From Salinibacterium amurskyense (lineage in GTDB: Bacteria > Actinomycetota > Actinomycetes > Actinomycetales > Microbacteriaceae), in NCBI RefSeq assembly GCF_002797685.1, contig NZ_PGFH01000001.1, positions 124,001 through 188,000 on the forward strand: a stretch of 64,000 bases of DNA, in the 5' to 3' direction. The position numbers and the translations under genes were made by a program. Below are positions 24,941 through 37,269 of the stretch, one piece after another (within the stretch, counting starts at the first letter, position 1; every line of letters starts with the position of its first letter). The notes beneath the pieces are model-generated. The model was not told the DNA's origin, ran no database searches, and saw nothing but the letters and a program-made list of their open reading frames with translations.

Positions 24941-26905
24941 ATGGAGCATCAAGAAGTGAACAGCACCACAAACCAACGCTTAGCGCAATTGATCTGGAAC
25001 ATCGCTGATGACGTATTGCGTGACCTTTATGTTCGCGGTAAGTACCGGGACGTCATTCTTCCGATGACTGTGCTCCGCCGCCTCGACAGTGTTCTGGGGA
25101 CGACAAAGCAAGAGGTTCTAAGCCGAAAAGAGAGTTTGGATGCTGCGGGAATCCTGAACCAAGATGCCGCTTTGCGCCAGGCTGCGGGCCAGGATTTCTA
25201 CAACACCAGTCTGTTCTTGATGAAGGATCTACGGTCTGCCAACTCACAGATGCAGTTGCGCCAGAACTTTGAGGCGTATCTCGATGGGTTCTCGCCGAAT
25301 GTGCAGGAGATCCTTGAGAATTTTGAGTTCCGCAACCAGCTTCCGCGTCTTACAAAGGCTGATGCGCTCGGGACGTTAATTGAGAAGTTCCTTGACCCCA
25401 CTCTTGATTTGTCTCCGTCGAGCCTAGACAACCATGGCATGGGCAGCGTTTTCGAGGAACTAGTTCGTCGTTTCAATGAGGAGAATAACGAAGAGGCTGG
25501 AGAGCACTGGACGCCTCGCGATGTGGTGAAGCTCATGACCCGCCTAATGTTCGAGCCGATTGCCGACAGCATCCCCGATGGCACCTATCTCCTGTACGAC
25601 GGTGCTATGGGTACTGGTGGGATGCTGACCGTAGCCGAAGACACGCTCACCGAGCTCACTAAAGATAAGAAGATATCTACGCATCTGTACGGACAAGAGA
25701 TCAACGCCGAGACTTTTGCGATTGCCAAGGCTGACCTTATTCTGAAGGGTGACGGTCGTGCAGCTGACAACATTAAAGGTGGGCCAGAGTTTTCGACGCT
25801 TTCGAACGACGCGTTTTCGAACATGGAGTTCGACTTCATGCTCTCGAATCCACCCTACGGCAAATCGTGGAAGACCGACCAGGAACGTATGGGTGGTGGG
25901 AAGAACATCACCGACCCGCGCTTCGTCGTTAACCATGCGGGCGACTCTGAATTCAGCCTCGTGACGCGATCCAGTGACGGGCAGATGCTGTTTCTGGCGA
26001 ACCTGATCGCCAAGATGAAGAACAGCACCGTAGCAGGCAGCCGCATTGCAGAGATTCACAACGGTTCGTCCCTCTTCACTGGGGATGCCGGGCAGGGCGA
26101 GTCCAACATCCGCCGCTATGTAATCGAGAATGACTTGCTCGAAGCGATCGTCGCCTTGCCGCTGAGTCTGTTCTATAACACGGGGATCGCTACGTATGTG
26201 TGGGTGTTGAGCAACCGCAAGCAGGAGCGTCGCAAGGGCAAGGTCCAGCTCGTCGATGCGACCAAGTGGTTTACGCCGCTGCGGAAGAATCTGGGGAGCA
26301 AGAACTGCGAGCTTTCCGATGACAACATCGAAACGATCATGAAAGCTTTCCATTCTTTCGACGAAGCGGATCCGGAAGTGTCGAAGACCTTCAACAATGC
26401 GGACTTCGGCTACTACAAGGTGGCGATTGAGCGGCCGCTACGTTTGGCCGGCGCGGAAACGGGGCGGGTATACAAAGCTGCCGAAATTAGAGCGCTGAAG
26501 GAGAGCAGCGCACGCGCCGACGACGCACCGGCGATTATTAAGAAGGTGCACAAGCCCGGCACGACAGCCGACCCGTTACACGGGCTCTTTGAGACACTAG
26601 TCGACGGGAGAGTCCGGGTTGTCGAGTACGAACGCGACACCGATCTTAGCGATTCCGAACAGATTCCTCTCACCGAATCTGCGGGCGACTACGGGAGCGG
26701 TATTGAGGCATTTATTCGGCGCGAGGTGCTCCCCCACACCCCGGATGCCTGGGTCGACAAGTCAAAAACCAAGACTGGTTATGAGGTGAGCTTTACCCGT
26801 CACTTCTATAAGCCAACGTCGATGCGCTCCCTCGACGAGATCCGCTCCGACATCCGTGACCTGGAGGCAGAAACTGACAACCTCCTGAGCGAAATTGTCG
26901 GCTGA
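24941..26905 (+). CDS. hsdM: Type I restriction-modification methyltransferase subunit
   Basis: This 654-residue HsdM N6-adenine methyltransferase has an N-terminal helical domain (residues 10-150), then the SAM-binding motif region AMGTGGML and the catalytic motif SNPPYG near residue 302. It modifies host DNA as an M2S complex and joins HsdR in the restriction complex. The block HWTPRDVVKLM is characteristic. The C-terminal 150 residues carry helices for binding HsdS. The stop overlaps the hsdS ATG (TGATG). Codons look less GC-biased than in the housekeeping genes, which fits horizontal transfer. Confidence 0.96.
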   Translation: MEHQEVNSTTNQRLAQLIWNIADDVLRDLYVRGKYRDVILPMTVLRRLDSVLGTTKQEVLSRKESLDAAGILNQDAALRQAAGQDFYNTSLFLMKDLRSANSQMQLRQNFEAYLDGFSPNVQEILENFEFRNQLPRLTKADALGTLIEKFLDPTLDLSPSSLDNHGMGSVFEELVRRFNEENNEEAGEHWTPRDVVKLMTRLMFEPIADSIPDGTYLLYDGAMGTGGMLTVAEDTLTELTKDKKISTHLYGQEINAETFAIAKADLILKGDGRAADNIKGGPEFSTLSNDAFSNMEFDFMLSNPPYGKSWKTDQERMGGGKNITDPRFVVNHAGDSEFSLVTRSSDGQMLFLANLIAKMKNSTVAGSRIAEIHNGSSLFTGDAGQGESNIRRYVIENDLLEAIVALPLSLFYNTGIATYVWVLSNRKQERRKGKVQLVDATKWFTPLRKNLGSKNCELSDDNIETIMKAFHSFDEADPEVSKTFNNADFGYYKVAIERPLRLAGAETGRVYKAAEIRALKESSARADDAPAIIKKVHKPGTTADPLHGLFETLVDGRVRVVEYERDTDLSDSEQIPLTESAGDYGSGIEAFIRREVLPHTPDAWVDKSKTKTGYEVSFTRHFYKPTSMRSLDEIRSDIRDLEAETDNLLSEIVG

Positions 26906-28278
26906 TGTTTAGAGATCTAAGGAGCCACAAGGGCTACAAGCCCTCCGGAATCACGTGGATGCCGACTATTCCTAGTCATTGGCGAACGCAGCGTCTGAAA
27001 ACAGTGGTGTACGAGAAGAACGTTAAAGGCTTTCCTGATGAGCCACTCCTCGCGGCAACGCAAGCGCGAGGAGTGATTCTGAAGACCGAATTCGAGACGC
27101 GAACGGTCGAAGCGCAGAAGTCACTCGAAACTCTAAAGCTTGTGGATGTCAATGACTTCGTTATCAGTCTTCGATCGTTTCAGGGGGGAATTGAACGTTC
27201 GCACGCTCGCGGGATTATCAGCCCGGCCTACACAGTTCTTCAAACGCAAAATGCTGGAAATCGCGAATACTTGGCGTTGCTCTTCAAGTCTCGGCAGTTC
27301 ATTGATGCGTTGACGTTGACGGTCACCGGAATTCGTGAAGGTCAGAACATTGAATATCCGCGGTTGGCTCGCGAACTCGTGGCTCTTCCACCGGCCGCCG
27401 AGCAAGCCGCGATCGTAAAGTACCTCGCACACGCACAAGCGCGCGTCGACAAGGCGATCAACGCCAAGCGCAAGCTCATAGCGCTAATCGAAGAGCGAAA
27501 GCAGGTCATTATCGACCAAGCGGTGACCCGCGGGCTTGCAGCGTCTACACAGTTTAAGGATTCCGAAGTCGCATGGCTCGGCGAGGTCCCCACGCATTGG
27601 AAAATCCGGCGAATCAAATATCTGCTCCGGCCGATAAATAAACGGTCCATAGCTGGTGATGAACAACGGCTTACAGTGTCATCAGCCAAGGGAATCGTCC
27701 CGCGCGCCGATGCGTCAGTCACGATGTTCGAGGCCGCGACGTATGTAGGACACAAGTTGTGCTGGCCCGACGACTTGGTAATCAACAGCCTTTGGGCTTG
27801 GGGCCGCGGGTTGGGGGTGTCTCGGCATCACGGTCTCGTGAGCGCTGCCTACGGGGTCTATCGTTCTCGAGTCGGAACCGGATTGGTTCCGGCCTACTTG
27901 CATGAGGTGGTGCGGTCGAGACCATTCCATAAGGAATTATTTGTTCAATCGCGTGGAGTTTGGAAATCTCGCCTTCAGCTAACAGACGAGCGATTTCTAG
28001 CGCTGTACATGCCGTTGCCCCCGCTCTCTGAGCAGATTCAGATTGTAGAATATCTGCGCGGAAAGTCGACCGAGTCTGATAACGCTGTCGCTAAAATCGC
28101 ACGAGAGATCGAACTCCTGCGCGAATTCCGCACCCGGCTCACTTCTGATGTTGTGACAGGACAGGTCGATGTTCGCGAGATCGCAGCGACTCTGTTCGAA
28201 CTGAACGACGACGTCCCGCTTGGTACAGGCGACGAACTGATCGATCCGGAGCCCGAGCTCGAAGAGCCCGGCGATTGA
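26905..28278 (+). CDS. hsdS: Type I restriction-modification specificity subunit
   Basis: This 457-residue HsdS has the usual two target-recognition domains. Each begins with a WMPTIPSHW / WLGEVPTHW type motif (about residues 18 and 220) and ends in a helical spacer with LPPAAEQAAIVKYL or LPPLSEQIQIVEYL. The two halves dictate a bipartite DNA target that cannot be predicted here. The C-terminal tail is acidic. It is translationally coupled to hsdM and followed 16 bp later by hsdR. Confidence 0.95.
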   Translation: MFRDLRSHKGYKPSGITWMPTIPSHWRTQRLKTVVYEKNVKGFPDEPLLAATQARGVILKTEFETRTVEAQKSLETLKLVDVNDFVISLRSFQGGIERSHARGIISPAYTVLQTQNAGNREYLALLFKSRQFIDALTLTVTGIREGQNIEYPRLARELVALPPAAEQAAIVKYLAHAQARVDKAINAKRKLIALIEERKQVIIDQAVTRGLAASTQFKDSEVAWLGEVPTHWKIRRIKYLLRPINKRSIAGDEQRLTVSSAKGIVPRADASVTMFEAATYVGHKLCWPDDLVINSLWAWGRGLGVSRHHGLVSAAYGVYRSRVGTGLVPAYLHEVVRSRPFHKELFVQSRGVWKSRLQLTDERFLALYMPLPPLSEQIQIVEYLRGKSTESDNAVAKIAREIELLREFRTRLTSDVVTGQVDVREIAATLFELNDDVPLGTGDELIDPEPELEEPGD

Positions 28279-28294
28279 AACAAAGGAGCGACCG

Positions 28295-31246
28295 ATGCCA
28301 CCAGCAAACCTGAATGAGGCAAGTCTCGAGGAGCTAATCGTCGACCAGATGGTCGAGAACGATGGTAGCTCCGGGTGGATCGAAGGCGATCCCAAAAGCT
28401 TCAACGCTGCTTACTGCTTAGACCTCCCTACATTTCGTGAATTCGTCAGAGAGACCCAGCCGGCCCTGATCGACACCCTCGACCTCGACGGGGACTCGCC
28501 CACCACCCACAAGTTCCTGGCACGGCTGCAAGGCGAAATAACCAAACACGGAATCATTGCCTGCGTGCGAGACGGAATCACACACGGCCAGCACCACATT
28601 GACCTTTACTACCCGACACCTGTAGCGCAGAATGCCAAAGCTGCCGAACAGTTCGCAACCAATCGGCTCACAATTACCCGCCAAGTCCACTACAGCACCA
28701 GCGATACGGGCAAGTCGCTCGACCTCGTCGCGTTCGTCAATGGATTGCCCATTGCAACCTTCGAGCTAAAGAACCAGATCACCACACAAACCGTCGAAGA
28801 CGCAGTCAAGCAGTACAAGACTGATCGCGATCCACGCGAACCTATCTTCGCGTTCGGACGATGCATGGTGCACTTCGCTGTCGACGACCACCATGTGCGG
28901 TTCTGCACACAACTAGCCGGAACCTCGTCGTGGTTTCTTCCCTTCGACCAAGGCAACAACGGCGGTGCCGGAAACCCGGTTAACCCACACGGAGTCATGA
29001 CCGACTACCTCTGGCAACAGGTACTTGAACCTCGCAGTCTCGCCAACATCATCGAAAACTACGCGAGCATCGTTCGCACCAAAGACTCCAAAACGGGCAA
29101 GAAGACCGCATCAATGATCTTCCCCCGCTACCACCAACTCGACGTAGTGAGAAAGTTGCTGGCGGATGTCAGCGAGCGAGGCTCTGGAACCCGCTACCTG
29201 ATCCAACACTCGGCCGGCTCCGGAAAGTCAAACTCCATTGCTTGGCTTGCACACCAACTGACCGGGGCAGAACACAGTGGGGCACGGGCTTTCGACTCGG
29301 TCATTGTGGTCACTGATCGGGTCATCCTCGACAGCCAGATTCGCGACACCATCAAAGGCTTCACCCAAGTGGGCTCAACCGTGCAGCACGCCAACACTTC
29401 CAAAGATCTGCGCGAAGCGATCGAAGCCGGCAAAAAAATCATCATCACTACGGTTCAGAAATTTCCCTACATCGTGCAAGACCTTGGCGGAGCGCAGCGA
29501 TACAAAAACTTCGCGATCATCATCGACGAAGCGCACTCCAGTCAGGGCGGCAAAATCTCCGCCGCACTTGCGCAAGCCCTATCTAAGGACGGGCTCGATG
29601 AAGGCGTAGAAGATACAGAAGACGCGCTCAATCGCCTTATGGAATCAAAGAAGATGCTCCCCAACGCATCCTATTTCGCCTTCACAGCCACACCGAAGAA
29701 CAAAACTCTCGAAACATTCGGCCAGGCGTACACCGCTGACGGCGTCGTCAAACATCGGCCGTTCCATAGCTACACAATGAAGCAGGCAATCGAAGAAAAG
29801 TTCATACTCGATGTTCTTGCCAACTACATCCCCATCGACACGTATTACAAACTCATCAAGACGATCGAAGACGATCCCGAGTTTGATGCCAAACGTGCCT
29901 CAAAAAAGCTACGCGCCTACGTAGAAGGTCAGAAGTTTGCCATCCGCCAAAAAGCGGAGATCATGGTCGACCACTTTCAGGCGCAGGTGTACCAGCCTCG
30001 CAAGATTGGCGGTCAAGCCCGAGCTATGGTGGTGACGAGCTCGATCCAGCGCGCTATCGACTACTTCGAAGCAATCAGCAGCTACCTCACCGAAACGAAG
30101 CGCCCATACAAAGCGATCGTCGCCTTCTCCGACTTCACCAATAGTTCCGGCAACAAGGTTACAGAAGCGCAGTACAACGGCTTTCCGAGTGCTTCCATCC
30201 CTGCAAAAATTCAGGAAGAGCCCTACCGGATTCTGATCTGTGCGGACAAATTCCAAACCGGATACGACGAACCACTGCTTCACACCATGTACGTCGACAA
30301 AACTCTATCCAGCGTAAAAGCTGTCCAGACACTCTCCCGACTCAACCGGGCGCACCCCAAAAAGAATGACTGTGCTGTTCTCGACTTTGCCAACGATGTT
30401 GACACAATTCAGCTGTCATTTCAGGACTACTACCAAACCACGGTGCTCTCAGGCGAGACAGATCCGAACAAACTCAATGACCTTGCGGCCGAGATCATGA
30501 AGGCTGGTTTGTTCTCGCAAGAACACGTCGACACATTCGTCGAACGCTACTTGGCTGATGCGCCAATCAACGTGCTGCACCCCCTGCTCGACGCACCAGT
30601 CGCTGAGTACACCGAGGGCATGGACGAAGACGAGCAGGTTAGTTTCAAAGGCTCCGCGAAAGCGTTTGTGCGAACATACGGCTTCCTTTCAGCGATACTT
30701 CCCTATTCGAGCGTGTGGTGGGAGAAACTGTCGATCTACCTCGGCTTCTTGGTCCCGAAGCTTCCCTCGCCCCAGGGCGAGGATCTCTCTGCGGGCATTC
30801 TTGAGAGCATCGACCTCGATTCCTTCCGGGTGGAGAAGCGAACCGCGATGAAGATCGCACTCGCAGACGGCGAAGCTGAAATCGATCCAATTCCTGACGC
30901 CGGCGCCGGTGGTCATACCGATCCGGGTATGGAAAAGTTGAGCGAAATCGTTGCCTCTTTCAACGCCCTGTTCGGGAATGTGCCTTGGGAAGACGAGGAA
31001 CGCATCCGACGTCGGGTAACAGAGGAAGTACCCGCCAAAGTCGCCGAAGACCCGATATATAAAACAGCGATCGCGAACAATGACCAGGCCAACGCGAAAG
31101 TTGCGATGGTCGATGCGCTCGGGAAAGTAATGCTTGACCTGGTCAAGGATGAGACGCAGCTCTTCAAGGAATACTCCGACAACGTGGACTTCAAGAAGTG
31201 GTTTGAAGACGCTGTGTTCCGGGCAACCTACAAGAAGAGTGCGTAG
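28295..31246 (+). CDS. hsdR: Type I restriction endonuclease subunit
   Basis: This 983-residue HsdR has an N-terminal PD-(D/E)XK nuclease (Asp in SLDLVAFVNG, ELK in ATFELKNQ, about residues 140-165), then SF2 translocase motifs: Walker A SAGSGKSNS near 307, IIIDEAHSS near 409, FTATP, and motif VI TLSRLNRAHP. A helical C-terminal domain binds the methylase core. All key residues are intact. A ribosome site AAAGGAG precedes the ATG. The complete HsdMSR set should be functional. Confidence 0.96.
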   Translation: MPPANLNEASLEELIVDQMVENDGSSGWIEGDPKSFNAAYCLDLPTFREFVRETQPALIDTLDLDGDSPTTHKFLARLQGEITKHGIIACVRDGITHGQHHIDLYYPTPVAQNAKAAEQFATNRLTITRQVHYSTSDTGKSLDLVAFVNGLPIATFELKNQITTQTVEDAVKQYKTDRDPREPIFAFGRCMVHFAVDDHHVRFCTQLAGTSSWFLPFDQGNNGGAGNPVNPHGVMTDYLWQQVLEPRSLANIIENYASIVRTKDSKTGKKTASMIFPRYHQLDVVRKLLADVSERGSGTRYLIQHSAGSGKSNSIAWLAHQLTGAEHSGARAFDSVIVVTDRVILDSQIRDTIKGFTQVGSTVQHANTSKDLREAIEAGKKIIITTVQKFPYIVQDLGGAQRYKNFAIIIDEAHSSQGGKISAALAQALSKDGLDEGVEDTEDALNRLMESKKMLPNASYFAFTATPKNKTLETFGQAYTADGVVKHRPFHSYTMKQAIEEKFILDVLANYIPIDTYYKLIKTIEDDPEFDAKRASKKLRAYVEGQKFAIRQKAEIMVDHFQAQVYQPRKIGGQARAMVVTSSIQRAIDYFEAISSYLTETKRPYKAIVAFSDFTNSSGNKVTEAQYNGFPSASIPAKIQEEPYRILICADKFQTGYDEPLLHTMYVDKTLSSVKAVQTLSRLNRAHPKKNDCAVLDFANDVDTIQLSFQDYYQTTVLSGETDPNKLNDLAAEIMKAGLFSQEHVDTFVERYLADAPINVLHPLLDAPVAEYTEGMDEDEQVSFKGSAKAFVRTYGFLSAILPYSSVWWEKLSIYLGFLVPKLPSPQGEDLSAGILESIDLDSFRVEKRTAMKIALADGEAEIDPIPDAGAGGHTDPGMEKLSEIVASFNALFGNVPWEDEERIRRRVTEEVPAKVAEDPIYKTAIANNDQANAKVAMVDALGKVMLDLVKDETQLFKEYSDNVDFKKWFEDAVFRATYKKSA

Positions 31247-31312: not shown

Positions 31313-31444
31313 TTGGACGAGAAAGCTGAAGTCAAAAGAGCTGGTTGCGGAACTCTCGTTCTCATCCTTTTCACCTGCGCCCTGTTGCTAACAATCGTTC
31401 TGAGCGGTTTTCTCGCATTGGCAGGAGCGTTCGAGCCAAAATGA
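31313..31444 (+). CDS. 43-residue single-span membrane microprotein
   Basis: A short frame begins at a TTG with GGAGA seven bases upstream. It encodes a charged head (about 10 residues), a hydrophobic span of about 27 residues with two Cys, and the short tail AFEPK. The stop codon overlaps the ATG of the next gene as ATGA. The coupling, the ribosome site and the clear membrane helix argue that it is real, though it is too short for most gene finders. The function is unknown; it may be a membrane toxin or anchor within the defence operon. Confidence 0.55.
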   Translation: MDEKAEVKRAGCGTLVLILFTCALLLTIVLSGFLALAGAFEPK

Positions 31445-32010
31445 TAATCGAAGATCTTCCCGAGTACACGGGATTCGAGCCAGCGGTGCTCGACTCAACT
31501 GCTGAGTCGATCGTCTCCGACCTTCTTAGAGCAGTCGAAGCCGTGCGTGATGAGGCTAATAGCCTGCTAAAGATTAGGGCATCCGAACAGGCAATTGCCC
31601 ACCGAGTTGCCTTTCAACTAGAGGTTTTACTTCGACACGGGGCGAAGCCGTGGGATGTGGATTGCGAATATAACCGCGTTGGAAATGAAAATGATTCTGA
31701 TGACCGTCAACAGTATTTGACCAAACGGCTCACCTCAAACGGGAATACTTTTGACGTTAACCCTGACCTAGTGGTGCATAGGCGCGGAACTAGCGACAAC
31801 GAACTCGTCGTCGAGATGAAAGTAGACGGTCGCAGCCACAGCACACGGAAAACAGCGGGCTTCGACCTGAAAAAATTGAAACTATTTCACGATGACCCAA
31901 GATTCAGATACCGCGAGGCTGTGTTCATCTTGTTTTACGTTGGAGAGGCCCCCCGTTGGGACATCCACCGATACGCTCCGCCCGGTGAAAACTCGAGCAC
32001 CAACGTCTGA
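31441..32010 (+). CDS. PD-(D/E)XK nuclease-like protein behind hsdR
   Basis: This 189-residue protein has a helical N-terminal half. The second half carries NPDLVVHRRG (Asp) and, about 20 residues later, LVVEMKVDG (Glu-x-Lys), the pattern of a PD-(D/E)XK nuclease core. Lys and Arg-rich helices follow. It is a plausible extra nuclease or effector of the island. The ATG at 31441 is coupled to the microprotein by ATGA; an earlier start in this frame (31345) would overlap the microprotein almost entirely. The exact family is not recognised. Confidence 0.7.
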   Translation: MIIEDLPEYTGFEPAVLDSTAESIVSDLLRAVEAVRDEANSLLKIRASEQAIAHRVAFQLEVLLRHGAKPWDVDCEYNRVGNENDSDDRQQYLTKRLTSNGNTFDVNPDLVVHRRGTSDNELVVEMKVDGRSHSTRKTAGFDLKKLKLFHDDPRFRYREAVFILFYVGEAPRWDIHRYAPPGENSSTNV

Positions 32011-32084: not shown

Positions 32085-32717
32085 CTAGAACTCGAACAAC
32101 CGCGCAGGCTTCCCCACCGTGCCCGCCGCAACTTCGCCAGTGGTCCGCAGCTGCGGCTCCATCGCGCGACGGAAGCTGTCGCGCATCAGCGGCTCGCCAG
32201 CGACAGCCTCGTGCAGGTCCTGGAGCTGGCGGAGGGTGAAGGCGCCGTCCAAGAGGTGGAGCGGATCGGGCGCCGACGCATAGCTCGAGCGCAGCGTCGC
32301 CACCGCGCGGTCGAGGATCTCGTTGTGCCCGTAAGGCAGGGCGCCGACATCCGTCACCGGCACCACTCGCGCTAGGTCGGCGTCGATGCTGAGGCGCGAC
32401 CATGGCACGGCGTCCAGGTGGGCGACCGAGAGAACCCAGCCGCGATTGTCGCGGGCGGGGTCGTCGAAGACGTGGAGTTGGCGGGGTGACAACCCGGATA
32501 CGCCGGCCTTGGTCTGCAGCGAACGGAGTACGGCATCCGCGAGCCTCTCTCCCTCGTGGAGGAAGGTGCCGGGGAGGCGCCATTCGTCGCCGGTGCGCAC
32601 GAGCAGCACGCTGAGAGCCGCGCCCGGCGGGACGGTCAGTACAGCGGTGTCGACGGCGACGGACGGCCGAGGGTAGTCGGTGAGTGCTCGGTTGTGCGAG
32701 TCGCGGTAGGTCTCCAT
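32085..32717 (-). CDS. NrtR-like Nudix-related transcriptional regulator
   Basis: This 210-residue protein has an N-terminal Nudix fold (about residues 15-140) and a C-terminal winged helix (FTLRQLQDLHEAVAGEPLMRDSFRRAME). The Nudix box is degenerate: the usual EExG is QTKAG, so hydrolysis is probably lost, as in NrtR repressors that sense ADP-ribose or related NAD metabolites. It is divergent from the ADP-ribose operon, and one of two 24-bp operators overlaps its own -10 box (GATAAT), so it likely represses itself and that operon. The start at 32717 is probably leaderless. Confidence 0.88.
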   Translation of the reverse strand: METYRDSHNRALTDYPRPSVAVDTAVLTVPPGAALSVLLVRTGDEWRLPGTFLHEGERLADAVLRSLQTKAGVSGLSPRQLHVFDDPARDNRGWVLSVAHLDAVPWSRLSIDADLARVVPVTDVGALPYGHNEILDRAVATLRSSYASAPDPLHLLDGAFTLRQLQDLHEAVAGEPLMRDSFRRAMEPQLRTTGEVAAGTVGKPARLFEF

Positions 32718-32722
32718 GACGC

Positions 32723-32746
32723 AATTATCGCAGATCCGCGCTAAAT
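32723..32746. promoter_or_regulatory. Operator copy 2 (proximal to the Nudix regulator)
   Basis: The pattern AATTnGCGCA-N4-TGCGCnAATT is matched with three changes. The site covers the GATAAT -10 box of the Nudix gene (32729-32724) and begins six bases from its ATG. It starts 46 bp before copy 1. Confidence 0.6.
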
Positions 32747-32768
32747 GTCAGTGGGGTGTCATACTCTG

Positions 32769-32792
32769 AATTTGCGCAACAATGCGCTAATT
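32769..32792. promoter_or_regulatory. Operator copy 1 (proximal to ARPP-1 gene)
   Basis: This is a perfect inverted repeat, AATTnGCGCA-N4-TGCGCnAATT. It starts two bases after a TACTCT -10-like box (32762-32767) and ends just before the ribosome site GGAGG, so a bound repressor would cover the transcription start. Confidence 0.7.
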
Positions 32793-32804: not shown

Positions 32805-33713
32805 ATGAACGGACACACGAACAGACACCCCAACAGACAAATCCCCCAACTCCACGTGGGGCACGGCAGCCACCACGGCAGCCTCAGCATCTTCCCCGTC
32901 TGGGTCGACTCGCCCAGAGTCACCGGCCTCGACTGGAAGGCCACCAGCATCCGCACCGCCGAACGCGAAGGCTCCCCCGTCGTCGGCGAACTCGTACTGC
33001 ACAACAGCACCGCTCGCCCGGTCGTCGCCCTCGAAGGCGATCTCCTCAAAGGCGGTTGGCAGGATCGGATGCTCGCCGCCAGCCTCCTCCTTGAACCGTT
33101 CGAGGCGCGGGTCGTCGCAGCGCTCTGCGTCGAGCACGGGCGGTGGGGCGGACGCACGACGGAGACGCAGAGCACCCATGAAACCAGCGGTCGGCGCAGC
33201 GCACTCAGCGTGCGGCACGGCAACGTGCGCGGCGTCGATCAACAGGGCGAAGTGTGGCGACGCATCGGCCGCTACGAGAACACCCTCGGCGCTACCGCGA
33301 GTTCGTCAATGCTCGACCACCTCGACCGCTCCGCCCCCATCGACGCTCACCTGCTCGATGGACAGCGCGGCGTAATCATCGGCATCGGTGGTCGCGTGGT
33401 CGGTGCCGAACTCTTCGGCAGCCCCACCGGACTGCGAACACGGTGGCAGGGCATCCTCGACGCTGCCGCCCTCGACGCCCGGCTCGCTCCCCACCGTCGC
33501 ACCACCGCCCACGATGCTCGTGTTTTCGCTCGCCACCTGCAGGCCGTGACCCTCGAAGACGGAGCAGACGCGGGGCTGGCCCGAGCGGTACGTTCACCAG
33601 AGGGCCGACTGCGGGCATCCGGAATCGTGCAAGCAAACGCAAGTGCAGCAACACCGAGCATCATCCACCTGACTGCGTTTGACGACGCGCACCCCCTATT
33701 GGAGAACGCATGA
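32805..33713 (+). CDS. ARPP-1-like protein of the ADP-ribose operon
   Basis: This 302-residue protein contains the block VVALEGDLLKGGWQDRML and, shortly after, LCVEHGRWGG. It matches what I recall of the ARPP-1 domain, named for genes associated with ADP-ribosylglycohydrolase and rhodanese-type phosphatases. Its biochemical role is unknown to me. It is soluble, with no signal peptide. The ATG at 32805 follows GGAGG; an in-frame ATG at 32745 lies before the operator and is rejected. Its end overlaps the next start (ATGA), so the three genes form a coupled operon. Confidence 0.75.
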   Translation: MNGHTNRHPNRQIPQLHVGHGSHHGSLSIFPVWVDSPRVTGLDWKATSIRTAEREGSPVVGELVLHNSTARPVVALEGDLLKGGWQDRMLAASLLLEPFEARVVAALCVEHGRWGGRTTETQSTHETSGRRSALSVRHGNVRGVDQQGEVWRRIGRYENTLGATASSSMLDHLDRSAPIDAHLLDGQRGVIIGIGGRVVGAELFGSPTGLRTRWQGILDAAALDARLAPHRRTTAHDARVFARHLQAVTLEDGADAGLARAVRSPEGRLRASGIVQANASAATPSIIHLTAFDDAHPLLENA

Positions 33714-34597
33714 ACGAACTGAACACCACCCCGGAACGCCCCACCATCGAGCCTCAACGTTTCTACACCCGCTTCACCGACACCGGCTTTCTACACGTCG
33801 GCACCTTCACCGGCATCACCCTCAACGGCGAGCGCCGCTACTTCATGTGGCAGACGGATGCGTGGAAGGAGATCTACCTCTCAGGGTTCGAGTACTACCG
33901 CGATGACGATGACACCCACTTCGCGGAATCCAGTCGCGTGGACGTGCAGCAGCTCAGCCCTGGCGCTGTCGAGACAGAACCGGGCGGCGGGAGCTTTCTT
34001 GACGCCTACTTTGGCCACGATCTCGACGACCCCATCAATCAGCAGGGGCGCACGAAAAAGGCTGACGAACTCGAGGCGCACATCAGCGACGCCGACAACG
34101 AAGACGAGGAAGACGACATGCTCATGACCGAGGTCGACGCGATGGTGCAGCACGGCATAGCGGTCGGCATTGCGACGATCGCCCACCGCGGGCAGCTCGA
34201 CAAGCTCGGCTACGACTACATCGATCATCCGGCGCGGGTTGCCGAGAGCTTCGATTGGCTGAATGAGCCGGTCGAGCATTGCACCGCGTGGCTGCACGAT
34301 GTGATCGAAGACACCGACATCAGCGCCTCCGACCTTCTGAAGGCGGGGATGCTTCCCGAGATCGTGACGGCAGTCGAGCTGATGACCCGGCGGACGGATG
34401 TCGCTAACGCCGACTACTACGACCGCATCCGCCAGAACCCTGCTGCTCTCGCGGTGAAGCTCGCGGACATCAACGACAACCTCGCCGATTGGCGCTTTCG
34501 CAAACTCGACTACGACACCCAGGTGCGCTTGTCGAACAAGTACTTCCACGCGCGGCAGCTTCTGCAGCCCGCGACGGACGAAACGGAGAACTCATGA
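33710..34597 (+). CDS. SpoT-like HD-domain protein with unknown N-terminal domain
   Basis: This 295-residue protein has an unknown N-terminal domain (residues 1-130, with aromatic-rich GERRYFMWQTDAWKEIYL) and an acidic linker. The C-terminal half resembles the HD hydrolase of SpoT/MESH1: HRGQLDKLGYDYIDHPARVA near residue 160, LHDVIEDT near 196 and VKLADINDN near 250. The metal-binding H, HD and D positions are all present. Substrates may be (p)ppGpp or another nucleotide. It overlaps both neighbours by ATGA. The phosphatase-glycohydrolase gene follows. Confidence 0.85.
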   Translation: MNELNTTPERPTIEPQRFYTRFTDTGFLHVGTFTGITLNGERRYFMWQTDAWKEIYLSGFEYYRDDDDTHFAESSRVDVQQLSPGAVETEPGGGSFLDAYFGHDLDDPINQQGRTKKADELEAHISDADNEDEEDDMLMTEVDAMVQHGIAVGIATIAHRGQLDKLGYDYIDHPARVAESFDWLNEPVEHCTAWLHDVIEDTDISASDLLKAGMLPEIVTAVELMTRRTDVANADYYDRIRQNPAALAVKLADINDNLADWRFRKLDYDTQVRLSNKYFHARQLLQPATDETENS

Positions 34598-36009
34598 AAT
34601 TCACCTCTGCACAGAACGACCGCGCCAGCGGCGTCATGCTCGCGATGGCCTGTGGCGATGCGCTCGGCGCCGGCTACGAATTCGGCCCGCCCTTCGAGGG
34701 CGAGGTGCTCATGAAGGGCGGCAACGGCTTCAACTGGGCTCCCGGCGAGTGGACGGATGACACCTCCATGGCCATCCCGATCCTGCGGGCTGCGGCATCC
34801 GGCCTTGACCTGCGCGACGAGGGGGTTCTCGACGAGATAGTCGCTGCGTGGGTCGACTGGGCGACAACGGCACCGGACGTCGGCGTGCAGACCAGCGGGG
34901 TGCTCCGCGGTATCGAGCCCACGGCATCCGCAGCTCGCGCCTCGGCCAAGCGTATCCACGACGCCCGCGGCCGCAGCGGCGGCAATGGCTCGCTCATGCG
35001 CACGGCGCCAGTCGCCCTCGCCTACCTCAAAGACCCGGCCGGGCTGGCCGAAGCCGCTCGTGCGATCAGCGATCTCACCCACTTTGACGAGGATGCCGGC
35101 GACGCCTGCGTGCTCTGGTGCCTCGCCATCCGTCACGCGATCCTCACCGGCGAAGCGGATGTTCGAGTCGGGCTCTCGGCGCTGGACCCCGACCGCGCTG
35201 CACTCTGGTCCGACCGCATTGACGATGCCGAGACGAAGCAGCCCCGCGACTTCACGAAGAACGGCTGGGTTGTCGAGGCATTGCAAGCGGCCTGGTCGGC
35301 GATCGTCAACGGTGAGGGTCTCGTCGATACTCTCGAACGCGCGGTGCGCGGCGGTCGTGATGCGGACACCGTCGCCGCGATTGCGGGCGGCCTCGTCGGC
35401 GCCCAGTGGGGACTCTCCGCGATTCCCGCCGCCTGGCAACGCATCGTGCACGGCTGGCCCGGGTTGCGCAGCCTCGACCTCGTTCGTCTCTCCACCGAGG
35501 TGCTGCGGGGCAAGCCGACGGAGGAACGCATTGACTACGCCGGGTACGGCGACATCTCGACGCTCGTGCAGCATCCGCACGACCCCGGCGTGTGGCTCGG
35601 CGCGGTCGGGGCTCTCGATAATCTTCCGCCCGAGGTGGATGCCGTGGTGTCGCTCTGCCGCATCGGGTCGAAACAGGTGCCGGCCCGCATCCGCGAGCGC
35701 CTCGAGATCCGTCTGATCGACAAGGTCGACCCCGCCGAGAACCCGAACCTCAACTTCGTTCTGGCGGATGCCGCGGATGCCGTCGCCACCCTCCGCGCCG
35801 AAGGCCACACGGTCCTGCTGCACTGCGTGCAGGCGCAAAGCCGCACGCCCACGGTCGCGGCACTCTATGCGGCCCGGCACCTCGACATCCCGATCGACCG
35901 CGCCCTGTCAGAAGTCTCGGCAGCACTGCCGCACGCTCGCCCCAATCGCGCGTTTCGCGCAGCGCTCCAATCCCCTGCGCTCACAAACTCGCGCTCGGGG
36001 CGCAGCTAA
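34594..36009 (+). CDS. ADP-ribosylglycohydrolase fused to Cys phosphatase domain
   Basis: This protein of 471 residues has two enzymes in one chain. Residues 1-310 are an ADP-ribosylglycohydrolase: ACGDALGAG, the metal site WTDDTSM, GGNGSLMRTAPVAL and GRDADTVAAIAGGLVGA. Residues 330-460 form a dual-specificity/rhodanese-type phosphatase with the loop HCVQAQSR near residue 410, that is C-X5-R. The pair would remove ADP-ribose and a phosphate from the same or related products. The start ATG overlaps the HD gene stop; a longer in-frame start at 34489 lies within that gene and is rejected. Confidence 0.92.
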   Translation: MKFTSAQNDRASGVMLAMACGDALGAGYEFGPPFEGEVLMKGGNGFNWAPGEWTDDTSMAIPILRAAASGLDLRDEGVLDEIVAAWVDWATTAPDVGVQTSGVLRGIEPTASAARASAKRIHDARGRSGGNGSLMRTAPVALAYLKDPAGLAEAARAISDLTHFDEDAGDACVLWCLAIRHAILTGEADVRVGLSALDPDRAALWSDRIDDAETKQPRDFTKNGWVVEALQAAWSAIVNGEGLVDTLERAVRGGRDADTVAAIAGGLVGAQWGLSAIPAAWQRIVHGWPGLRSLDLVRLSTEVLRGKPTEERIDYAGYGDISTLVQHPHDPGVWLGAVGALDNLPPEVDAVVSLCRIGSKQVPARIRERLEIRLIDKVDPAENPNLNFVLADAADAVATLRAEGHTVLLHCVQAQSRTPTVAALYAARHLDIPIDRALSEVSAALPHARPNRAFRAALQSPALTNSRSGRS

Positions 36010-36100: not shown

Positions 36101-36700
36101 ATGCCACTCGCAGCCGAAACGATCCGCACCGCTCGCACCCGCGCGGGGATCAGCCAGGCCGCTCTCGCTCGTCGCGCCGGTATCGCGCAGTCGACCATCA
36201 GCCGGATCGAGCACGAAGAAATCGACCCGACCTGGGCGACGATGCAAAGCCTGCTCGCTGCCACTGGCTGGGCGATTAACCCACAGCCGACAGCTACCGC
36301 ACAATTGCTTTCGCCGGAGACGGTATCTCGGGCGATGGCGCGAAGTCTGCGCAAAGCCGACTCGGAGTCAGCGATCCGAGACCTCACTGAGGGCGTAGGG
36401 CGCCTGATTCGAGCCGGTGAGGCCGGTGAGAATGTTCCCGAGTGGGCCATAGCGAAACCCTCGAAGCCGATCGGGATCCCGCTCTGGGACACCTTCCTCT
36501 CGACCGCATTTGCGTACGGGCTCGAGCGTGCAGGCCAAACACCACCTCAGTGGATGCTCGATGCACCGTCATTGCCGCACGAGACCTCACCCGGTGACGA
36601 CCCCGGTCCAGAGTTTCGGCAGTGGTTGCGAGCGCGAACACCGCCGGTTTTCCTCAACAAGAACATCCTCTCGCGGGCTGAAGACTGGGCGATCGCGTGA
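36101..36700 (+). CDS. Xre-type HTH protein, likely antitoxin/repressor
   Basis: This 199-residue protein has an N-terminal Xre helix-turn-helix (residues 5-60, ARTRAGISQAALARRAG and TISRIEHEE). The C-terminal 140 residues are not recognised and are rich in Pro and Trp at the end. It precedes a nucleotidyltransferase with a four-base GTGA overlap. The arrangement fits an antitoxin-repressor controlling its own operon through the palindrome at 36033. GGGAG precedes the ATG. Confidence 0.82.
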   Translation: MPLAAETIRTARTRAGISQAALARRAGIAQSTISRIEHEEIDPTWATMQSLLAATGWAINPQPTATAQLLSPETVSRAMARSLRKADSESAIRDLTEGVGRLIRAGEAGENVPEWAIAKPSKPIGIPLWDTFLSTAFAYGLERAGQTPPQWMLDAPSLPHETSPGDDPGPEFRQWLRARTPPVFLNKNILSRAEDWAIA

Positions 36701-37269
36701 GCGGCGGCTACCGTCAACTCAACGCGAGCGAGATCACGGAGTTGCTCGGCGAGCTCCTCGAGCGCGCCGATGCAGAGGGCCTCAAGGTTGATGCTTACAT
36801 TATCGGCGGCGCCGCGATGGCAATTCATTTGGGCCGTGACCAGCTCACCCCCGACGTCGATGGCCTCTTCTTCCCGTTCGAGCGCGTCAAACTCATCGGA
36901 AGACAAATGGCTGAAGAGCACGGCCTGGCTCCCGACTGGGTCAACGAGAATGCCCGCCCTTTCATTACGTTTGACACAACAGATCCGCGACATTTCGTGG
37001 AGGTCGAACTCCGCGGACACAAGCTTCGGCTTGCTTCGCAGCGCGCCCTTCTTGCCATGAAAATGGCACGGTATGCGCGCAAAGACTATGCAGACATCAC
37101 AGCGCTGATCCACTCATTAGGCCTCTCACTCCCTGAACAGATTGTCGACCTGACATACGACGTACTCGGCGAAGAGTCGTTATCGCTCACCGCAGGCCGG
37201 GATGATCTAGTGATATTGGCCGCAGAAGCATTGGCGCGTGTGAAGCGAGAAACCGAACCGCAGCGTTGA
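36697..37269 (+). CDS. DUF6036-like nucleotidyltransferase, likely toxin
   Basis: This 190-residue protein has a minimal nucleotidyltransferase fold: YIIGGAAMAIH with the GG motif, then LTPDVDGLF with the metal-binding D-x-D. It resembles DUF6036/AbiEii-type enzymes, which in some toxin-antitoxin pairs transfer nucleotides onto tRNA or proteins. The GTG start is coupled to the HTH gene. A toxin role is inferred from context; the pair may also be a phage-defence module, as it lies close to the defence island. Confidence 0.78.
   Translation: MSGGYRQLNASEITELLGELLERADAEGLKVDAYIIGGAAMAIHLGRDQLTPDVDGLFFPFERVKLIGRQMAEEHGLAPDWVNENARPFITFDTTDPRHFVEVELRGHKLRLASQRALLAMKMARYARKDYADITALIHSLGLSLPEQIVDLTYDVLGEESLSLTAGRDDLVILAAEALARVKRETEPQR

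Follow-up and report, generated by a model that had tools for sequence, protein, structure and literature searches.

Genes and control sites of the operon

The DNA analysed here, referred to as the window, is a stretch of 64,000 nucleotides from the actinobacterium Salinibacterium amurskyense (contig NZ_PGFH01000001.1, positions 124,001 to 188,000), and all positions count from its first letter. It harbors a three-gene operon coding for an ARPP protein, an HD hydrolase and an ADP-ribosylglycohydrolase (ARG) fused to a phosphatase, together with a divergent gene for an NrtR-type repressor. An earlier note on this DNA had described the genes; the two operators and the DNA-damage-type promoter are additions to it. 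The features are:

32085-32717, minus strand: NrtR-type repressor gene, divergent from the operon (degenerate Nudix sensor and NrtR winged helix)
32725-32744, no strand: operator 1, TTATCGCAGATCCGCGCTAA, 7 bp upstream of nrtR; position weight matrix (PWM) score 21.0, two mismatches to the consensus
32746-32767, plus strand: promoter of the PafBC/RecA-NDp type, TGTCAGTG-N8-TACTCT, between the two operators
32771-32790, no strand: operator 2, TTTGCGCAACAATGCGCTAA, 3 bp downstream of the -10 element and covering the probable start of transcription
32805-33713, plus strand: ARPP (PF20208) gene, 302 amino acids
33710-34597, plus strand: HD hydrolase gene
HD protein, residues ~13-88: small N-terminal beta domain
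HD protein, residues 89-137: linker of low model confidence
HD protein, residues ~141-285 (34130-34564): (p)ppApp-hydrolase-like HD domain
34594-36009, plus strand: ARG-phosphatase fusion gene
ARG-phosphatase, residues 1-~300, plus strand: ADP-ribosylglycohydrolase domain (PF03747, E=4.3e-53)
ARG-phosphatase, P-loop at 35821-35844, plus strand: Cys-dependent domain of dual-specificity/rhodanese-phosphatase type, fused C-terminally

The three genes overlap by ATGA at both junctions, as the earlier note had seen; the overlaps lie at 33710-33713 (ARPP/HD) and 34594-34597 (HD/ARG) and agree with the open reading frames (ORFs). The HD/ARG overlap is not universal: in loci L026 and L029, which belong to the same genus, this junction measures 72 bp. 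The ARPP gene more likely starts at 32805 than at 32745, the start of a longer ORF, since the promoter match has its upstream edge at 32745, whereas GGAGG stands directly before 32805. The genome contains one match to ARPP and one to ARG.

A DNA-damage-type promoter

The promoter, TGTCAGTG-GGGTGTCA-TACTCT, fits the PafBC/RecA-NDp consensus tTGTCRgtg-8nt-TannnT (PMC5656591) except for the weak first t, which is A here. TGTCRGTG-N8-TANNNT has six exact matches in the genome, against none for a control pattern. Apart from the one at the operon, one stands 7 bases in front of uvrB, one in front of an exonuclease of the DNA polymerase III epsilon type and one 153 bases ahead of ribonucleotide reductase alpha; the remaining two are separated by over 300 bases from the next ORF of notable size. 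The genome has only two WYL matches. They are adjacent, and one also matches HTH_PafC (E=1.5e-32); the second is taken as PafB by its position alone.

The same arrangement is found elsewhere. ARG or ARPP loci with an operator were counted after removal of 15 that repeat a genome or are near copies. In 15 of the 50 non-redundant loci thus obtained, TGTCRG-N10-TANNNT precedes the operator and ends 3-13 bases ahead of it. At eight wrong spacings the numbers of matches were 0, 0, 1, 0, 0, 0, 0 and 0, and the reversed pattern gave 0. Four of these promoter-bearing loci belong to the genus of the window; others are from Homoserinimonas (L028), from further Microbacteriaceae (L096, L134) and from actinobacterial metagenome-assembled genomes (MAGs; L103, L104, L111, L112). 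A further four (L218, L221, L224, L235) are ARG loci from a single genus that belongs to a different family; no ARPP was found there within the 1.5 kb examined on either side. A count over 68 ARPP upstream regions gave 15 forward matches at the right spacing and 0 at nine others; reverse matches numbered 0 at the right spacing and 1 at another, and shuffles gave a mean of 0.07 and a maximum of 2. Up to 7 repeats were removed from this count, and it excludes loci, such as L028, in which a long ORF matches ARPP only from beyond its residue 120.

NrtR and its operators

The product of the divergent gene matches NrtR_WHD (PF21906, E=7.5e-14) and NUDIX (3.6e-05), and also the NCBIfam model of the ADP-ribose-responsive repressor (1.1e-17, 64 bits, with a cut-off of 400). 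Its Nudix box was judged by eye to be degenerate. Together, these data bear out the degenerate Nudix regulator that had been proposed to adjoin the operon. ADP-ribose is cited in PMC9503650 as the ligand that NrtR proteins sense.

Regions upstream of NrtR have a 20-bp palindrome in common (consensus TTAGCGCAnnnnTGCGCTAA, matrix consensus TTAGCGCAATATTGCGCTAA). Operator 2 is the sole site in the genome without a mismatch and has a matrix score of 26.2. This matrix was trained with the window's own site included; in a separate leave-genus-out test operator 2 scored 25.5, against a shuffle maximum of 9.0. With the own genus excluded from the matrix, an operator-like site exceeded all 200 shuffles in 38 of 45 regions, the window included; six duplicates or near copies (L092, L093, L094, L095, L097, L137) were left out of this test.

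The whole genome was searched by pattern with up to three mismatches, and the sites found were then scored with the matrix. There were 28 strand matches, compared to 39 for the control pattern. Only operator 1 and C1:551022 (inside an open frame, score 13.2) have two mismatches, all others three. The two operators of the window are the top sites within three mismatches (26.2 and 21.0), followed by C1:1794404 with 17.2 and, among the other sites listed, scores of 14.2 or less. Since the pattern is not in excess over the control elsewhere, no regulon is visible beyond the operon locus. The genome encodes a second NrtR (C1:1426370), which precedes nadA-, nadB- and nadC-like genes (named by eye); between C1:1422000 and C1:1431000, which includes these genes, no operator match with up to three mismatches was found. 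Operators at genes of NAD biosynthesis or salvage, a feature of the NrtR regulators of NAD metabolism, are thus not apparent from the match counts.

The ARG-phosphatase and ARPP proteins

The chain combining an ADP-ribosylglycohydrolase with a Cys phosphatase, as noted before, is confirmed by family matches and motifs. In the ARG domain the motifs TDDT (54-57), TH (162-163) and DADT (256-259) are intact; individual residues therein are what we take to be metal ligands. The C-terminal domain matches DSPc with E=4.3e-06 and 27 bits, below the Pfam cut-off of 33.5, but dual-specificity phosphatases in the Protein Data Bank (PDB; 2hcm, DUSP28) match the same stretch and the motif H410-C411-x5-R417 is intact. 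The TH motif and the binuclear site of ARG have been described (PMC9503650).

The first product of the operon is ARPP-1-like, as had been stated, and matches the Pfam family ARPP-1 (PF20208) with E=6.5e-49. Invariant over 19 aligned rows are Q86, C108, E110, R113-W114, Q147, W151, Q187, H288 and H296. An AlphaFold2 model is confident (pLDDT 88.3, pTM 0.89); Foldseek found nothing below E=0.001 for it in PDB and BFVD, and a profile search against PDB sequences gave nothing at E≤1, although a distant kinship may have escaped these searches. A scan of viral contigs yielded a single ARPP, on an IMG/VR contig (L148, 3016-3942); genes near it code, among others, for an Mrr-type nuclease, for a resolvase and for a surface lipoprotein. 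Matches to ARG and NrtR are absent from the 9.9 kb examined of this 33-kb contig.

The HD hydrolase is closest to a (p)ppApp hydrolase

By family models the HD protein is only loosely placed: HD_4 matches with E=0.0012, under its cut-off, and NCBIfam RelA/SpoT with 1.7e-09 and 36.6 bits, far under the cut-off of that model. The best solved relative by sequence is 7SMG from Bacteroides caccae, a (p)ppApp hydrolase that matches with E=2e-19, compared to 1e-06 for the best Rel. An AlphaFold2 model from a 13-row alignment has a mean pLDDT of 72.9, with values below 50 in the linker (89-137) and ten-residue means of 79-96 across residues 151-290. The top four Foldseek matches of the model are chains of 7SMG (TMt 0.85-0.89, rmsd 1.8-2.0, 38-40% identity), followed by MESH1 with PAPS and then MESH1 with NADPH.

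H173, H196-D197, E200-D201, D253 and N257 are intact and presumably act as metal ligands and as residues of the ED motif. Position R44 of Rel, which we take to be the guanine contact, is D164 here, so that the Arg expected of Rel/SpoT ppGpp hydrolases is not present. Asp occupies this position in all 13 rows of an alignment of such HD proteins (L083, L085, L086, L089 and L030 left out, L092 and L096 added) and in 25 of 26 rows of a larger alignment of this HD type, with Thr in L090. The earlier note had called the protein SpoT/MESH1-like and had thought of a pathway that possibly includes an alarmone. Its metal site and its place in the RelA/SpoT superfamily stand, but the nearest relative is a (p)ppApp hydrolase and the R44 position carries Asp. 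Because its closest solved relative is a (p)ppApp hydrolase and not one of the ppGpp hydrolases, the HD domain likely has an adenine rather than a guanine nucleotide as its substrate, as judged from sequence and model.

The N-terminal domain of the HD protein (33710-34000; FYTRF.D..F...G... RYF.W ... DTHFAE) recurs in L081 and L096; for L081 an ARG match is absent within the stretch examined.

Conservation of the operon

The nearest named relatives among the genomes scanned are Salinibacterium strains, with an ARPP 93% identical in NG253. Of the genomes sampled, 10 of 150 in the family and 14 of 394 in the class have an ARPP match, the own genome included. A scan of named genomes, with a pattern that favors ARPP copies bearing one conserved motif, yielded 56 ARPP loci, nearly all actinobacterial. 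These 56 loci, as far as their flanks were available, were used for all neighbor counts. ARG lies on the same strand within 6 kb in 37 of the 46 loci with at least 2.5 kb downstream, and within 300 bp in 27. An HD-type match is found in 12 of the 46 (a fragment in L095, truncated in L103) and a divergent NrtR in 29 of the 49 loci with at least 1 kb upstream.

NrtR followed by ARPP-HD-ARG is found in the window, in L026 (identical to L094, Salinibacterium sp. SWN167) and L029 of the same genus, in L092 and L093 (Salinibacterium NG253 and SWN248) and in L096, a Frigoribacterium MAG. The three-gene order is therefore kept beyond the species, a point on which the earlier proposal had been open to refutation.

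The HD protein occurs in several other settings. In L083 it forms a single chain of 829 amino acids with ARG and the phosphatase, divergent from NrtR; in L084 and L227 it is found beside ARG, again divergent from NrtR. In L030 and L089 it is fused to a 5'-nucleotidase, with the NT5C-HD fusion of L030 lying near ARPP and ARG. A distinct HD_4 type is present within or next to the operon in Geodermatophilaceae and in one Nocardioides, and in a tree (fragments or repeats L094, L028, L095 and L103 left out) it is separated from the type of the window with full support. Over all 29 rows the starred branches require at least two changes. A tree test rejected one clade for eight ARG-linked Microbacteriaceae rows versus fifteen others (p-AU 0.024); the group was named after the neighborhoods had been viewed, L030 was counted among the others, L227 was absent and the domain is short. 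A single origin of the link between HD and ARG is thus moderately disfavored. Probably, HD proteins became coupled to ARPP/ARG systems more than once.

In Geodermatophilaceae a gene that we had called 'ART125' follows ARG-phosphatase or ARPP (L121, L122, L142, L125, L110) and, except in L110, precedes the HD_4 hydrolase. It has R...S...ExE-like invariants that resemble those of ADP-ribosyltransferases, but an assignment as ADP-ribosyltransferase was dropped, with no support from Pfam or PDB sequences (one unrelated weak PDB match per search). Only one weak match to it turned up when 296 genomes of the class were searched. In L123 (Geodermatophilus aquaeductus) the ARG match is only ~30 residues long and its ORF runs into the 'ART125' tail, whereas ARPP and HD remain; this looks like an internal deletion.

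The neighborhood

Type I restriction genes are found near the operon at 26905-31246, and between them and nrtR an ORF (31345-32010) matches PD-Lambda-3_A of PADLOC (E=3.2e-17). The operon does, as had been said, stand beside defence genes. None of the four operon proteins matched a PADLOC model at E≤0.001. Directly 3' of the operon (36101-37269) lie genes for an XRE-type regulator and a DUF6036/DUF2204-like nucleotidyltransferase with a 4-bp overlap; the two resemble a toxin-antitoxin or Abi-like pair. A scan of ten ORFs between 26.9 and 38.3 kb, two of which matched no family, revealed no ADP-ribosyltransferase; the search for transferases did not extend to other parts of the genome. The mark to be removed may therefore be of outside origin, set by a phage, a prophage or a competitor, or be made by a gene farther away.

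Discussion

On balance, we lean slightly towards the view that the operon is inducible by DNA damage, derepressed by ADP-ribose and serves to erase ADP-ribose marks. The handling of ADP-ribose under a regulator for an NAD-type ligand had already been suggested and is supported by the family membership of the proteins, the local operator and the wide conservation of NrtR, ARPP and ARG. From the gene set, the motifs, the operators, the promoter match and the affinity of the HD domain, all obtained by computation, we infer the ligand of NrtR, the substrates, the induction, the order of steps and the chemistry of ARPP as follows. In the off state NrtR would occupy both operators, at the likely start site of the operon and before nrtR. 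PafBC is activated by single-stranded DNA (PMC11804915); after damage it would drive the promoter, and an ADP-ribose-type ligand would free the operators of NrtR. That an activator-type promoter is directly followed by a repressor site suggests that damage alone is insufficient as long as NrtR is bound. PafBC and NrtR might thus jointly detect ADP-ribosylation that is harmful to DNA or replication. The ARG domain would cleave ADP-ribose off a modified macromolecule. The adenine nucleotide, released or capped, would lose phosphates to the fused Cys phosphatase and to the HD enzyme; the latter would have an adenine ribonucleotide and not ppGpp as its substrate and would attack the phosphate at the 3' (or 2') position. 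ARPP could then process the sugar product via its invariant cysteine (C108). The phosphatase and ARPP steps are guesses guided by PMC9503650.

It is tempting to speculate further that this is a coincidence-gated repair operon of actinobacteria, which fires fully only when DNA damage, via PafBC, meets a raised level of an ADP-ribose-type ligand, via NrtR, a situation that would mark ongoing ADP-ribosylation of nucleic acid or protein. Adenine marks would then be erased by a glycohydrolase together with two phosphatases whose folds are unrelated, and ARPP would be a sugar-acting enzyme of new fold with a catalytic cysteine. Taken as a whole, this remains a tentative and rather doubtful proposal.

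Several observations weigh against the damage-inducible, mark-erasing operon. The strict promoter match is absent from 35 of the 50 operator loci, including Klenkia, Geodermatophilus and Pseudonocardia, and the operator test fails in seven of the 45 regions (L031, L035, L042, L125, L138, L139, L142). Nine of 46 ARPP loci are without ARG and 20 of 49 without a divergent NrtR, so ARPP also occurs apart from both. The HD protein is an accessory, since most ARPP-ARG operons do not have it, and the HD_4 type of the Geodermatophilaceae operons retains Arg at the R44 position (7 of 7 rows). The Asp at this position is merely suggestive, because residues that set the specificity for A or G are not evident according to PMC7644958, and the candidates listed there do not include the position. 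Finally, the mutant in the Streptomyces coelicolor gene SCO6735, which encodes an ADP-ribose eraser, is not significantly sensitive to ultraviolet light (UV) or methyl methanesulfonate (PMC5087735, PMC9411070).

The same genes could be explained as orphan immunity with two independent antidotes, ARG against ADP-ribosylating toxins and HD against toxins that pyrophosphorylate adenosine at the 3' position, both from prophages or competitors; (p)ppApp or pyrophosphorylated tRNA ends would be the targets of HD. The relation of HD to the B. caccae (p)ppApp hydrolase is as expected from this idea, MuF prophage toxins of both kinds are described, whose immunity proteins are (p)ppApp hydrolases or ARH1-like hydrolases (PMC11699363, PMC12226406), restriction genes adjoin the operon and its proteins match no toxin family of Pfam or NCBIfam. 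But one shared repressor of ADP-ribose type is needless for two unrelated toxins, and the fusions of HD to ARG (L083) or to a 5'-nucleotidase (L030, L089) indicate a single nucleotide pathway. We regard two separate antidotes as unlikely.

The two other explanations concern the substrate of HD. As a 2'-phosphatase it would convert NADP(H) or phospho-ADP-ribose to NAD(H) or ADP-ribose and so feed the ligand of NrtR and NAD recycling, which would make the operon one of salvage and not of defence. Mesh1 and XccSAH are reported to hydrolyze NADPH, but the efficiency of XccSAH with NADPH is ~240- to 2900-fold below that with the alarmones listed beside it (PMC9765508). The MESH1 structures with PAPS and NADPH rank next after 7SMG, whereas salvage finds no counterpart in the operator pattern, which shows no excess elsewhere in the genome. 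We therefore give salvage a small chance only. The remaining explanation, that of the earlier note, is a ppGpp hydrolase that ties ADP-ribose to the stringent response. The RelA/SpoT superfamily and the intact metal site are compatible with it, but the nearest solved structure by both sequence and fold is a (p)ppApp hydrolase, with Rel hydrolases scoring far lower, and Asp replaces the Arg in nearly every row of both alignments. Moreover, one or more additional or different matches are present in 148 of 150 genomes of the family, for the most part in ORFs of ~750 amino acids as in Rel, so a ppGpp hydrolase is not lacking. The link to ppGpp was thus rejected as first choice, and we consider it very improbable.

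Comparison with known systems

The gene set is of a predicted kind that has already been described. In section 3.8 of PMC9503650 (Iyer, Burroughs, Anantharaman and Aravind, 2022) ARG systems were predicted to act as counter-ADP-ribosylation immunity against viruses. Those systems likewise comprise a fusion of ARG to the rhodanese-phosphatase superfamily, a Nudix factor, an HD phosphatase related to alarmone hydrolases and an ARPP with conserved Cys and Gln, and they include actinobacteria. Their hallmarks are found here as intact ARG motifs, a Nudix-type factor with operators and coupled phosphatases in the form of the C-terminal domain and the HD protein. They differ in that the trigger given in section 3.8 is phage ADP-ribosylation, sensed via a Nudix or WYL factor, and that the HD domain is not assigned there to the (p)ppApp type; a term search of the text gave no occurrence of PafBC, 'DNA damage' or 'operator'. 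The earlier note knew of no experimental function, and none was found in open-licence papers either, but the gene set itself had been published in 2022 with a proposed anti-phage role. Besides PMC9503650, searches of open-licence papers brought up none that we recognized as treating the gene set combined with PafBC, RecA-NDp or NrtR. As far as checked, the adenine-type HD and the dual control by damage and ADP-ribose are new.

Like the NrtR regulators of NAD metabolism, the repressor combines a Nudix-like domain with the NrtR winged helix and has palindromic operators; unlike them, it has its operator at the operon with no excess elsewhere, and it is the other NrtR of the genome that is found at nadABC-like genes. 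The HD protein shares the fold, the metal residues and 38-40% identity with 7SMG and Aph1-type immunity proteins but carries an extra N-terminal domain and a linker. In contrast to the setting of 7SMG and Aph1, no adenosine pyrophosphokinase family was found among the neighboring ORFs scanned. If the operon works as proposed, SpoT-superfamily hydrolases in the setting of ARG operons act on adenine nucleotides.

With the PafBC/RecA-NDp regulon (PMC5656591, PMC6789036, PMC11804915) the operon has the matched consensus and the encoded PafC in common. An NrtR-type operator directly after the promoter, as a second, metabolite-type gate, sets it apart from the regulon as described in these sources. 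The operators and the promoter make the role of the operon easy to test. The closest precedent for its regulation is SCO6735, a DarG-like ADP-ribose eraser that reverses DarT marks, has a conserved RecA-NDp promoter and is induced 5-fold by UV (PMC5087735, PMC9411070). SCO6735 is a macrodomain protein and not an ARG, it is not encoded in an ARPP-HD-ARG operon, and no NrtR operator is described for it in the parts of these papers examined. If the operon is what we propose, several actinobacterial lineages have the removal of ADP-ribose marks under the control of their DNA-damage response, and this macrodomain gene of Streptomyces is not the only case.

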